Assembly: GCF_947648125.1 (NCBI RefSeq)
Contig: NZ_CANSMR010000010.1
Span: 62,001 to 126,000 of the forward strand
Direction of reading: 5' to 3'
DNA length: 64,000 bases
Source of the DNA: an uncultured Bradyrhizobium sp.
GTDB lineage: Bacteria > Pseudomonadota > Alphaproteobacteria > Rhizobiales > Xanthobacteraceae
In this document: positions 11,724 to 57,795 of the stretch, piece by piece
Position numbering within the stretch: position 1 is the first letter of the stretch
Layout: the number at the start of each line of letters is the position of its first letter
Translations under genes and position numbers: made by a program
The notes under the pieces: model-generated
What the model was told of the DNA's origin: nothing
Database searches by the model: none
The model's input: the letters and a program-made list of their open reading frames with translations, nothing else

Positions 11724-11887
11724 TTGCTGTCTCCGGCGTCGCCGGTTCAAGGCCGGCGCGTTGGGTTCCCCTACCAGATGGCAATTAAAAAGCCTGCGAT
11801 CAAGCTGCAAAACCGCGGTTCCAGGCCCGCAACGGCGGATTCTGAGTGACAGGGCGGCGATGAAGCCGGGCCTTACGCCTCATACTC

Positions 11888-11974
11888 GTCATGCCCGGCC
11901 TTGTGCCGGGCATCCACGTCTTCGGTGCCACTTGCGAGAAAGACGTGGATGGCCGGGACAAGCCCGGCCATGAA
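11888..11974. repeat. REP pair of the gtcat-GCCGGGC family (empty form)
   Basis: Left unit gtcatgcccggcc...atccacgtc faces right unit gacgtggatggccggg...catga, with a loop of about 20 nt. It belongs to the family also seen at 16401-16489, 57711-57793 and, split by a gene, at 50658-51022. Confidence 0.8.
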
Positions 11975-11994
11975 CGGAAGGTTGTGCATCTTCC

Positions 11995-16382: not shown

Positions 16383-16400
16383 GGCAGGATACTTCCTCTC

Positions 16401-16489
16401 GTCATGGCCGGGCTTGTCCCGGCCATCCACGTCTTTTTTCTTGTCACGGATTCGAAGTCGTGGATGCCCGGGACAAGCCCGGGCATGAC
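16401..16489. repeat. REP pair of the gtcat-GCCGGGC family (empty form)
   Basis: Left unit gtcatggccgggcttgtccc faces right unit gggacaagcccgggcatgac, with inner arms atccacg/cgtggat and a loop of about 27 nt. It lies between two convergent genes and may double as a bidirectional transcription barrier. Confidence 0.8.
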
Positions 16490-16513
16490 GATGTGGAGAG
16501 AGTGGGGCGTCCC

Positions 16514-39606: not shown

Positions 39607-40002
39607 GTCTCCGTCATTCCGGGCTTTCGCTTCGCGAGCCCCGGAATGACAGTGAGGTGAGCAAGCGGCGCGCGACACTCCCACAACTGTCATCGCCCGG
39701 CTTGACCGGGCGATCCAGTACGCCGCGGCCTCTCGGCTCAAGTACAGGCGTCTCTGGAATGCTGGATCACGCGCTTTCGCAGGTGATGACACCGAACAAG
39801 CTGTTTGACCGGTTGAATCGAGGACGATCTTCATCGTCGTCCTGGCGAAAGCCAGGACCCACTACCCCAAATGGGATTTGTTGTGCGAGGCTGCGGCCAC
39901 AGATCGCTCTTACAACGCAACTCTGTGGTTATGGGTCCCTGCTTTCGCAGGGACGACAGCGGTGGGTGTGGCGCGCAGCCTGCGCAGCAACGATGGATCC
40001 GC
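39607..40002. repeat. 396-bp gap made of three repeat families
   Basis: 39612-39650 is a gtcattccggg hairpin, 39689-39789 a gtcatcgcccggc REP-type pair, and 39834-39962 the second copy of the cgtcgtcc repeat seen at 35571-35707. No gene is supported here. It lies between convergent genes (DUF1330 and MmgE/PrpD). Confidence 0.75.
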
Positions 40003-49512: not shown

Positions 49513-50649
49513 TCAGCCGCGCCGTGTGGCGCGGCCGGATTCGACGTCGAAAATCTCTCCTCGCGGGCCGATATCGACGAAGGCGGCAGGATCGGCGCCG
49601 GTCATCCAGACCTGTGCACCGAGCTTGGCGAGCTCCTCGAACAGCGCCTTGCGCCTATTGGGATCGAGATGGGCGACGACCTCGTCGAGCAGCAGCAGCG
49701 GCACGATGCCGGTCATCTCCGCGACCATCGTGGCATGCGCCAGCATCAGCCCGATCAACAGCGCCTTCTGCTCGCCGGTCGAGGCGTCGCGCGCCGGCAT
49801 GCTCTTCGGCGCGTAGACCACCTGCAGGTCGGTCAGATGCGGGCCGTCGAGCGTGCGCCCGGCAGCGGCGTCGCGCGGACGGCTGGCGCGCAGGATCTCG
49901 CGGTAGCGGTCCTCCACTGCGGTTGCCGGCTCCTGCAGCAGCGCATTCTCCATCCAGCCGTCGAGCATGATCTCGGCGGAGGGGAAGGCCGAGGCCGCGC
50001 CGCGCTCGCGCAGCATCGCGGCAAGCTTGGCGGCGGTCTGGCCGCGCGATGCGGCGACCGCGACGGCAAGCTCCGCGGTCTCACGCTCGATCGCGTCACA
50101 CCAATGGTCGTCGTAGTTGCGCACTTCGAGCAGCCGGTTGCGCGAGCGCAGCGAGCGCTCCAGCGCCGAGACGCGGCTGGAATGCTCGGAATCGATCGCC
50201 AGCACCAGGCGGTCGAAGAAGCGCCGCCGCTCGGACGCTGCGCCCATGAACAGGCCGTCCATCGCCGGCGTCAGCCACACGATGCGCAGATGGTCGCCGA
50301 ACGCGGTCGCCGAACCCACCGGTTCGCGATCGATGCGACAGCGCCGGCTGTTGCTCGCCTCGCCGGTCGGCGGATCGATGCCGGTGCCGAGCGTGGCGAG
50401 GCCGAGCGCGCCCTCGACTTCGGCCGAGACCGCCCAGGAGCCGTCGCCCTGATTATCGGCGATGTCCTCCAAGGTCGCGCGGCGCAGGCCGCGGCCCGGC
50501 GACAGGAACGAGACCGCCTCCATGCAATTGGTCTTGCCGGCGCCGTTCGGCCCGACCAGCACCACCATGTCGCCCGCGACCTGCAGCGTCGCCGTCCGGT
50601 AATTGCGGAAATGCGTCAGCGACAAGCGATGAATGCGGGACGGGGTCAT
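49513..50649 (-). CDS. recF: DNA replication and repair protein RecF
   Basis: 378 aa SMC-like ATPase that helps RecO/RecR load RecA at gaps. Walker A is GPNGAGKTN at about 33-41, the signature DASTGEQKALLIGL, and Walker B LLLLDEVVAHLD. It starts 8 nt after the left repeat of the GIY-YIG cassette, so that repeat lies in its leader. The order dnaA-dnaN-recF-gyrB is the ancestral bacterial arrangement. Confidence 0.96.
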   Translation of the reverse strand: MTPSRIHRLSLTHFRNYRTATLQVAGDMVVLVGPNGAGKTNCMEAVSFLSPGRGLRRATLEDIADNQGDGSWAVSAEVEGALGLATLGTGIDPPTGEASNSRRCRIDREPVGSATAFGDHLRIVWLTPAMDGLFMGAASERRRFFDRLVLAIDSEHSSRVSALERSLRSRNRLLEVRNYDDHWCDAIERETAELAVAVAASRGQTAAKLAAMLRERGAASAFPSAEIMLDGWMENALLQEPATAVEDRYREILRASRPRDAAAGRTLDGPHLTDLQVVYAPKSMPARDASTGEQKALLIGLMLAHATMVAEMTGIVPLLLLDEVVAHLDPNRRKALFEELAKLGAQVWMTGADPAAFVDIGPRGEIFDVESGRATRRG

Positions 50650-50657
50650 GTTACCTT

Positions 50658-50689
50658 GTCATTGCCGGGCTTGACCCGGCAATCCATCG
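50658..50689. repeat. left inverted repeat of the GIY-YIG cassette
   Basis: A 32-bp unit (GTCATT...ATCCATCG) with the core GCCGGGCTTGACCCGGC (50664-50680). It pairs with 50992-51022 in inverse orientation at 30 of 32 positions when compared unit to unit. Confidence 0.85.
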
Positions 50690-50695
50690 TCCGCG

Positions 50696-50983
50696 CTAGC
50701 GGACAATTTCATCATATAAGTCTCGCCAGTCGGGATTGCCGGCAACGATCAGATCAATCTTCCACTCACGCGACCAGTGCTTGATGTTTTTCTCGCGCTG
50801 AAGCGCCGCGGCGATTGTCTCATGGGCCTCAAAATAGACGAGCGTCTTGATGCCGTACTTCTTGGTAAAGCCTTCGGCGAGACCCTCGCGATGCTCGTAA
50901 ACTCGCCGGACCAGATTGTTGGTCACGCCAACGTAGAGAGTTCCACCGGGCTTGCTCGCGAGGATGTACACCCAATAGGTCAT
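50696..50983 (-). CDS. GIY-YIG nuclease family protein, 95 aa
   Basis: Small single-domain GIY-YIG endonuclease (UPF0213/YhbQ-like). The motif is split as WVYILASKPGGTLYVGVT, followed by the conserved Arg in NLVRRVYEHRE, Glu in REKNIKHWSREWKIDLI, and the end NPDWRDLYDEIV. ATG at 50983 is preferred; an ATG at 51010 would start inside the right inverted repeat. The gene fills the space between dnaN and recF and lies inside a 32-bp inverted-repeat pair. It is probably a selfish or repeat-linked gene, not a replication gene. Confidence 0.88.
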   Translation of the reverse strand: MTYWVYILASKPGGTLYVGVTNNLVRRVYEHREGLAEGFTKKYGIKTLVYFEAHETIAAALQREKNIKHWSREWKIDLIVAGNPDWRDLYDEIVR

Positions 50984-50990
50984 CTCTTGT

Positions 50991-51022
50991 TCGATGGATG
51001 GCCGGGTCAAGCCCGGCCATGA
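50991..51022. repeat. right inverted repeat of the GIY-YIG cassette
   Basis: The unit CGATGGATGG...CCGGCCATGAC is the inverse of 50658-50689 with two differences. These two are compensatory within the palindrome, so each hairpin is kept. Confidence 0.85.
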
Positions 51023-51034
51023 CGAGAGGAGAAA

Positions 51035-52153
51035 TCACACCCGCATCGGCATCAGCACGTAGAGCGCGCCCTTGCTGTCGCGGTCCTGCACCAGGGTCGG
51101 CGAGCCGGGATCGGCGAGCTTCAGCACCGCGACTTCGCCCTCGATCTGGGCGGCGATGTCGAGCAGATAGCGCGAGTTGAAGCCGATATCGAGTGCATCG
51201 GAGGCGTACTCGACCTCGATCTCTTCGGTGGCGCTGCCGGAATCCGGGTTGGTGACCGAGAGCACCAGCTTGCCCGCGGACAAGGCCAGCTTCACCGCGC
51301 GGCCGCGTTCGCTGGAGATAGTCGAGACGCGGTCGACGGCAGCCTCGAAATCCTTCTTGTCGACCACCAGTTCCTTGTCGTTGTTCTGCGGAATGACGCG
51401 GCCATAGTCCGGGAAGGTGCCGTCGATCAGCTTCGAGGTCAGCACCACATTGCCGAGCGTGAAACGGATCTTGCCGTCGGACAGCTCGATCGAGATCTCG
51501 GCGTCGTCGCCCTCGATCAGCCGCTGCACCTCGCCGACGGTCTTGCGCGGGACGATCACGCCGGGCATGCCGGTCGCGCCCTTGGGCAGCGCGAGGTCGA
51601 TCTGCGCCAGGCGATGGCCGTCGGTCGCAACCCCGCGCAGGGTCGCAGCCTTGGCGCTGCCGGCGGCGTGCAGATAGATGCCGTTGAGGTAATAGCGGGT
51701 CTCTTCGGTCGAGATCGCAAACTGGGTGCGGTCGATCAGGCGCTTGATGTCGGACGCCGGTAGCGAGAACGAGTGCGTCATGTCGCCGGCGGCAAGGCCC
51801 GGGAAATCGCTCTCGGGCAGGGTCTGCAGCGTGAAGCGCGAGCGGCCGGCACGCACCGCGAGCACCGAGCGGTCGCCGTCGGCCTCCAGCACGATCTGCG
51901 AGCCGTCAGGCAGCTTGCGGACGATGTCGTAGAACATGTGCGCAGGCACCGTGGTCGAGCCGGCGGTTCCGGTCTCGGCCGGGAGCGTCTCCGTCACCTC
52001 GAGATCGAGGTCGGTCGCCTTCAGCGACAATTTGGCGCCCTCGGCGCGGATCAGCACGTTGCCGAGGATCGGGATGGTGTTGCGGCGCTCGACCACGCGG
52101 TGAACGTGACCCAGCGATTTCAGGAGTTGCGCGCGCTCGACGGTGACCTTCAT
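51035..52153 (-). CDS. dnaN: DNA polymerase III subunit beta (sliding clamp)
   Basis: 372 aa processivity clamp. It starts MKVTVERAQLLKSLGHVHRVVERRNTIP and ends in the conserved ALYVLMPMRV. Three clamp domains of about 120 residues each are present. It is separated from dnaA by 280 bp including a terminator, so it must have its own promoter. The GIY-YIG cassette starts 12 nt beyond its stop. Confidence 0.96.
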   Translation of the reverse strand: MKVTVERAQLLKSLGHVHRVVERRNTIPILGNVLIRAEGAKLSLKATDLDLEVTETLPAETGTAGSTTVPAHMFYDIVRKLPDGSQIVLEADGDRSVLAVRAGRSRFTLQTLPESDFPGLAAGDMTHSFSLPASDIKRLIDRTQFAISTEETRYYLNGIYLHAAGSAKAATLRGVATDGHRLAQIDLALPKGATGMPGVIVPRKTVGEVQRLIEGDDAEISIELSDGKIRFTLGNVVLTSKLIDGTFPDYGRVIPQNNDKELVVDKKDFEAAVDRVSTISSERGRAVKLALSAGKLVLSVTNPDSGSATEEIEVEYASDALDIGFNSRYLLDIAAQIEGEVAVLKLADPGSPTLVQDRDSKGALYVLMPMRV

Positions 52154-57701: not shown

Positions 57702-57710
57702 CCACCGCTC

Positions 57711-57793
57711 GTCATGCGCGGGCTTGACCCGCGCATCCATTTACGAAGAGTCTCCCGAAGAAGATGGATTGCCGGGTCAAGCCCGGCAATGAC
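57711..57793. repeat. REP pair of the gtcat-GCCGGGC family (empty form)
   Basis: Left unit (57711-57742) GTCATGCGCGGGCTTGACCC... and right unit (57763-57793) ending CCCGGCAATGAC face each other across a loop of 20 bp. Its architecture is the same as the GIY-YIG cassette at 50658-51022, but without the gene. Confidence 0.85.
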
Positions 57794-57795
57794 GG

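Follow-up and report, generated by a model that had tools for sequence, protein, structure and literature searches.

The window analysed here is a stretch of 64,000 nt from the genome of an uncultured Bradyrhizobium sp. (assembly of 8.57 Mb in 71 contigs), in which a small, intact reading frame, P0001 (50699..50983, minus strand, 95 aa), occupies the gap between two open reading frames on the same strand that we take to be recF on the left (49513..50649, from the frame and its translation) and dnaN on the right (51035..52153, from the frame); this gene order is kept in relatives. A Pfam search at E 0.001 returned GIY-YIG as the sole match to P0001 (E 4.4e-16), with no HUH motif or catalytic tyrosine (Y1 transposase) domain. 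Positions Y6, Y17, G19, R27, H31, E52 and N83 were invariant across an alignment of 38 GIY-YIG sequences, presumably including the catalytic residues, and the gene is under purifying selection, with a median dN/dS of approximately 0.06 (187 of 190 pairs among 20 orthologs). Together, the Pfam match, the conserved motif positions and the dN/dS identify a GIY-YIG endonuclease gene; the fold assignments of all nucleases discussed below are likewise based on Pfam and alignments. Among the matches listed, the nearest named relatives of P0001 are in Bradyrhizobium MAGs, at 93-94% identity, and no near-identical second copy was found in the same genome, where the next best match has 62% identity.

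P0001 is enclosed by two inverted CGTC-type REP hairpins, both with the tag facing outward. The left hairpin (50657..50686, plus strand, 3' of the gene) consists of the tag TGTC, a 9-bp stem, a CTTGA loop and a CCA tail, and the right hairpin (50995..51024, minus strand, 5' of the gene) differs in carrying the tag CGTC on an otherwise equal layout. Both arms were recovered by three scans, both stems begin with AT, and the folds gave a 9-bp stem and a 5-nt loop with z values of -5.2 and -4.9. The spacing is tight, with 7 nt from the recF start codon to the left arm and 10 nt from the right arm to the dnaN stop codon. As the initial annotation had noted, two units of 32 nt match inversely with just two differing positions, and these differences keep the hairpins paired, T-A in one hairpin corresponding to G-C in the other. 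Passages of the survey by Di Nocera et al. 2013 (PMC3733652) describe CGTC REPs, already known in Bradyrhizobium, by a CGTC or TGTC tag, AT at the stem base, an 8-9 bp stem, a 4-5 nt loop, a CCA tail and occurrence as dimers. Both arms belong to this superfamily by tag, AT-starting stem, stem and loop lengths and CCA tail, and the genome also holds many dispersed copies, often in inverted pairs: 20 exact CTTGA cores and 27 exact CTTGT cores were found, against 0 for a reversed-pattern control.

P0001-type genes were found in 23 of 98 genus genomes, always between dnaN and recF among the matches listed, and in 22 of these 23 orthologs REPs are present at both ends at mostly equal spacing, the exception (L020) having a single arm in a 1675-nt gap. 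The contents of the gap were scored in 92 genomes, leaving out G090 and G097, which gave no usable recF match, G046, whose locus lacked dnaN, as well as G041, G078 and G091; two states were set by hand, G034 as DUF559 and G002 (L272) as REP-only. The GIY-YIG cassette was present in 23 of these gaps, a DUF559 nuclease in 36, CGTC REPs only in 17 and neither in 16. On a RecF-DnaN tree the GIY-YIG state required at least 20 changes, of which well supported branches force eight, and presence was not clustered (215 of 500 shuffles were as low). Divergence among the copies at this site tracks that of RecF (rho 0.71 across 21 loci, in pairs that are not independent), which, taken with the purifying selection, indicates that the gene is either a kept resident with frequent loss or is exchanged by recombination with its neighbours.

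Neither a clean empty site nor a target duplication was seen in the gaps of relatives. Of 68 scored gaps that lack the gene, 16 open on the left arm's initial 11 nt, allowing at most one mismatch (shuffle rate 0.0003); these are 15 partial left-arm remnants and L272, an internally deleted cassette that keeps both whole REP arms and the first part of the gene only. With most of its gene deleted and its arms left, L272 shows how a gene-less pair can arise. Two of the partial remnants, L056 and L059, match the left arm only with a mismatch, and the 13 exact remnants (at least 11 nt) all stop at positions 11-16, in the stem top or loop, although L045-L047 and L049, and perhaps others of the 13, may go back to a single inherited scar. 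In three gaps that hold DUF559 (L070, L276 and L283), other DNA starts directly after CGTCATTGCCGGGCTT. This breakpoint pattern was noticed post hoc and covers remnants of at least 11 nt; the clustering of ends is as expected from cutting at the loop, but slippage at hairpins could cause it too. Arm remnants in gaps without the gene, the divergence with RecF and the lack of a clean empty site among the relatives suggest that much of the pattern goes back to loss and replacement. The proposal in the initial annotation of an insertion at a permissive gap, for which clean empty sites in sister strains would speak, is not supported if taken as a recent event.

A high turnover at one site is also what a homing-type process could leave, in which the nuclease would cut dnaN-recF alleles that lack the cassette, or a REP in them, and recombination would copy the cassette in, so that it spreads among strains. 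GIY-YIG enzymes include homing endonucleases, and both the unclustered presence changes and the fact that the 23 matches with 85% identity or more all share a single site (among the matches listed) would fit such a process. The distribution of the gene is compatible with homing but not specific to it, and we consider it unlikely, since GIY-YIG identity follows RecF identity (a correlation that co-transfer of recF could mimic), other subfamilies are found at other loci with the same architecture, and the arm remnants left in strains that lack the gene speak for loss.

The genome encodes six genes of the GIY-YIG family of P0001, all inside inverted palindrome pairs, and the six palindromes are all different, being of the CTTGA, CTTGT, CGCCCGG stem, CCCTGC-GAAA, CCTGGC-GAAA and ATTGCGAG types. 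To score enclosure, the 250 nt to the left of a gene were compared with the 250 nt to its right and the highest-scoring local inverted repeat was taken, with a threshold of 16; the three other GIY-YIG proteins of the genome, including a 724-aa frame that is presumably UvrC, reached 10.0 each when scored at the frame ends, and no CGTC REP was found in the stretches around these three genes. Similarity among the family's proteins was then compared with similarity among their repeat arms, with proteins thinned at 80% identity and arms cut at 60 nt. The two were correlated across 71 genes (Mantel rho 0.39, the best of 999 permutations reaching 0.12; the bin below 35% identity in this comparison probably holds misaligned rows). 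The correlation also held for the 21 genes compared inside the genus, at rho 0.36, and for the 50 in the named set, at rho 0.60, both values exceeding all 999 permutations (p 0.001 each). The persistence of this covariation inside one genus means that host composition alone is no explanation for it.

REP counts followed the presence of the gene in part. Genomes with the dnaN-recF gene (23) contained a median of 18 CTTGA REPs, two of which are the arms flanking the gene itself, versus 6 in the 75 genomes without it (p 6e-7), while counts of the control CTTGT repeat were 14 with and 9 without the P0001-type gene (p 0.07). A test of independent pairs, drawn from supported branches, gave no significant CTTGA link (mean 3.9 in the same direction, 0.6 in the opposite direction), and there was no significant link between the second subfamily and CTTGT REP counts (p 0.12). 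CTTGA REPs were also counted in three genomes with no P0001 relative at E 0.001 among the matches listed, namely G008 (13), G025 (8) and G081 (4).

The covariation bears on a reading in which the REPs regulate the gene, through transcription termination or mRNA stability, while the nuclease acts elsewhere, for example in repair or defence. The arms do lie close to the genes, with median distances to the matched ends of 14 and 11 nt, and a role of REPs as RNA elements has been proposed in passages of PMC3733652. However, regulation predicts neither the covariation of nuclease and repeat nor the presence of that repeat in dispersed copies at a distance from the gene, and this reading appears quite improbable.

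Three gene-less inverted REP pairs are present elsewhere in the window, at 57710..57794, 11887..11975 and 16400..16490. The initial annotation had treated all three as the unit that flanks P0001; all three exist, but the same unit, with the CTTGA loop of the P0001 cassette, is found at 57710..57794 only. The other two have the CTTGT loop type and extended arm of another GIY-YIG paralog (L010, on contig C13), with the arm at 11887..11975 lengthened by CACGTCTT as in the L010 cassette. A single REP at 39688..39717 (plus strand) is of the CGCCCGG-stem variant, which also flanks the third GIY-YIG paralog (L011). Whole gene-less pairs resembling 11887-11975 recur at dozens of places in some relatives (G010, G070), so that the pair, rather than the single REP, looks like the dispersed unit. 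At the 16400-16490 site several relatives (L346, L347, L352, L353) carry a CCCTCTCC-type repeat instead, and two repeat systems thus alternate at another gap too. For two gene-less pairs, no clean junction or empty site was seen among the relatives listed; their sites vary and hold partial pairs or another repeat family. Some CTTGT cassettes (L037, L039, L040, L043) carry an extra REP next to one arm, as if a gene-less pair and a cassette were adjacent or shared an arm. The initial view of the GIY-YIG frame as sitting in the loop of a common inverted pair of REPs is supported.

Such pairs would also be expected of an autonomous transposon in which the REP arms are terminal inverted repeats and gene and arms move together, as gene-less pairs resemble internally deleted derivatives, such as L272, and the orthologs are, with one exception, bounded by arms at both ends. 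The P0001 subfamily, however, is confined to dnaN-recF in its 23 of 98 genomes (among the matches listed), the genome holds no near-identical second copy, and relatives show neither clean empty sites nor target duplications. Because of the single site and the lack of clean empty sites in the gaps seen, the view that the gene itself is a transposon was rejected; we regard it as very improbable.

Enclosure by inverted palindromes extended well beyond P0001, which, taken from its first start codon, has an inverted-repeat score of 23.5 and was alone in reaching 16 among the 44 open reading frames tested in the window. Most copies tested carry flanking repeats, which is the outcome that the initial annotation had named as supporting its view: 161 of 192 distinct testable GIY-YIG relatives (among the matches listed) were enclosed in an inverted palindrome pair, the remaining 31 lacking a scoring pair. 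This comprised 6/6 genes in this genome, 101/109 in the genus list (among the matches listed) and 54/77 further named genes. The count derives from 197 rows tested, 166 of them at 16 or above, after removal of the repeats L001, L002, L157, L158 and L162. The 109 genus genes come from 29 loci and 80 further stretches in a list ranked by similarity to P0001 (among the matches listed), and the named genes are from the best 80 of at least 588 loci matching one peptide pattern, with L174 left out and L181 counted as two genes. Among the matches listed, enclosed named examples span Alpha-, Beta-, Gamma- and Deltaproteobacteria, Omnitrophota, Patescibacteria and Dehalococcoidales. Control windows of equal layout beside the GIY-YIG genes never reached the threshold (0/377, maximum 14.5), and flanking open reading frames of at least 150 aa did so in 12 of 348 cases, six of which lie at DUF559 loci (L247, L263, L311, L316 and, twice, L321) and may belong to the DUF559-palindrome association described below. 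That enclosure is a chance or host effect, whereby REPs present in many intergenic gaps would bracket any short gene, has a probability close to negligible: REPs are common and 12 flanking frames do score, but the window frames, the control windows and the other GIY-YIG proteins (0/3 enclosed) speak against it, as does the repeat-protein covariation inside one genus.

A second nuclease family showed the same arrangement. A DUF559 gene from the dnaN-recF gap (one tested) matched PF04480 at E 2.1e-36, a Pfam family unrelated to GIY-YIG, and 77 of 92 distinct DUF559 genes lie inside inverted CCCTCTCCC...GGGAGAGGG-like palindromes, compared with 0 of 167 controls. By set, these were 32 of 34 distinct genes in the dnaN-recF gap, 27 of 31 rows from 60 genus genomes sampled by Pfam-model search, and 18 of 27 from 200 phylum genomes; the 92 are 94 rows minus the repeats L250/L302 and L285/L305, with L306 and L307 left out as repeats. 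Gaps with DUF559 inside CCCTCTCCC/GGGAGAGGG palindromes include L048, L050, L054, L055, L057, L063, L065 and L069, among others. The palindrome differs among DUF559 subfamilies, as judged by eye. DUF559, a Vsr-like PD-(D/E)XK nuclease, thus resembles the GIY-YIG cassette in its gap and its inverted palindromes, but differs in Pfam family and in palindrome family. In Caulobacter, VsrA (DUF559, PF04480) has been proposed as a Vsr-like mismatch-repair nuclease (PMC12907096), the pertinent passages of that article making no mention of flanking repeats, and flanking repeats were not a topic of the articles found to mention DUF559, as far as titles and the opening of abstracts indicate. The DUF559 system is the part of these observations most likely to be new.

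A third kind of enzyme was found in an equivalent position. The one Y1/RAYT-like match without stops in the genome (L345, approximately 1426-1974) lies between inverted copies of a CGTAGGATGGGTAGAGCGCAGCGAAACCCATCA-like repeat, and its own inverted repeat scores 33, providing a positive control for RAYT-like units and a third repeat family. A broken Y1 transposase gene (L344), with four stops in the match, has no scoring inverted pair. A RAYT as the partner of CGTC REPs in this genome was accordingly rejected, as L344 has no scoring pair and L345 a different repeat.

Two known systems invite comparison. Site-specific, single-strand GIY-YIG nucleases (Ssn) have reportedly been described from Neisseria meningitidis, in Nature Communications in 2025, with homologs elsewhere; their cognate repeat (NTS) is said to be present in many copies, and the homologs to have cognate sequences of their own. 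By that description, the family studied here is alike in pairing a small GIY-YIG protein with its own multi-copy repeat, but several paralogs per genome with different repeats, the dnaN-recF site and the exchange with a DUF559 cassette are not known to be features of Ssn. CGTCATTCCCGCGAAAGCGGGAATCCAG is present in some outgroup GIY-YIG cassettes. The dRS3 repeats of Neisseriae are assigned to CGTC-1 in passages of PMC3733652, which also describe REPtrons, in which RAYT (TnpA-REP) genes are flanked by GTAG REPs and are repeat-specific in species with several REP families. The cassette is similar to a REPtron in that the gene of a DNA-processing enzyme is flanked by its own REPs ('cognate' here rests on covariation), but its enzyme is GIY-YIG rather than an HUH tyrosine transposase, and its REPs are CGTC rather than GTAG.

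RAYTs are described as resident single-copy elements, and P0001 likewise behaves as a resident single-copy element and not an active transposon. For CGTC REPs, passages of the 2013 survey (PMC3733652) report no dedicated transposase and describe association with transposase genes as only fortuitous. A word search found 'GIY' absent from the main text of that survey and from the later REP papers PMC12306157 and PMC8266576, and no literature joining GIY-YIG with REPs was found by title and the start of abstracts. The GIY-YIG family could therefore be the enzyme that was missing for CGTC REPs in the 2013 survey, and enclosure together with covariation indicates that, as initially proposed, it holds for these REPs the place that RAYTs hold for GTAG REPs. 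The accompanying suggestion that such a role is new stands in so far as no link was found in the REP literature, but is weakened by the GIY-YIG nucleases with cognate repeats reportedly described from Neisseria in 2025.

These observations are best accounted for by the cassette being a REPtron-like unit, in which a small GIY-YIG nuclease would recognise its own CGTC-type REP and be encoded inside an inverted pair of it, a reading to which we assign a probability of roughly 0.72 from sequence comparison. The nuclease is probably site-specific and single-strand. It would cut the REP when this is single-stranded and folded, whether on the lagging strand, in incoming DNA or in transcribed DNA, with the cut falling at or beside the hairpin loop. 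Dispersed gene-less REPs would then be non-autonomous targets that the cutting maintains and perhaps spreads, and internal deletion of a cassette would yield a gene-less pair. The gene-less pairs have probably moved. A wider reading, which we put forward tentatively and at less than even odds, is that HUH tyrosine, GIY-YIG and DUF559 PD-(D/E)XK enzymes, which are unrelated folds, are each the partner of their own class of hairpin repeat, even in one genome, that GIY-YIG and DUF559 compete for shared intergenic sites, with the former as the missing enzyme of the CGTC REPs and the latter as a third, undescribed REP system, and that loop cutting drives site turnover.

Bacterial genomes commonly carry REPs, and the results suggest that the P0001 family is the partner of a hairpin-repeat class that had been reported without a known enzyme. 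Protein type tracking hairpin type gives a direct, testable answer for the CGTC REPs, and joins the literature on these repeats with that reportedly existing on Ssn. The finding of DUF559 with the same architecture at the same site further suggests that enclosure of a nuclease by a hairpin pair of its own is a general arrangement and not a peculiarity of RAYTs, with each subfamily and its own hairpin offering a ready set of candidate sequence-specific, single-strand cutters.
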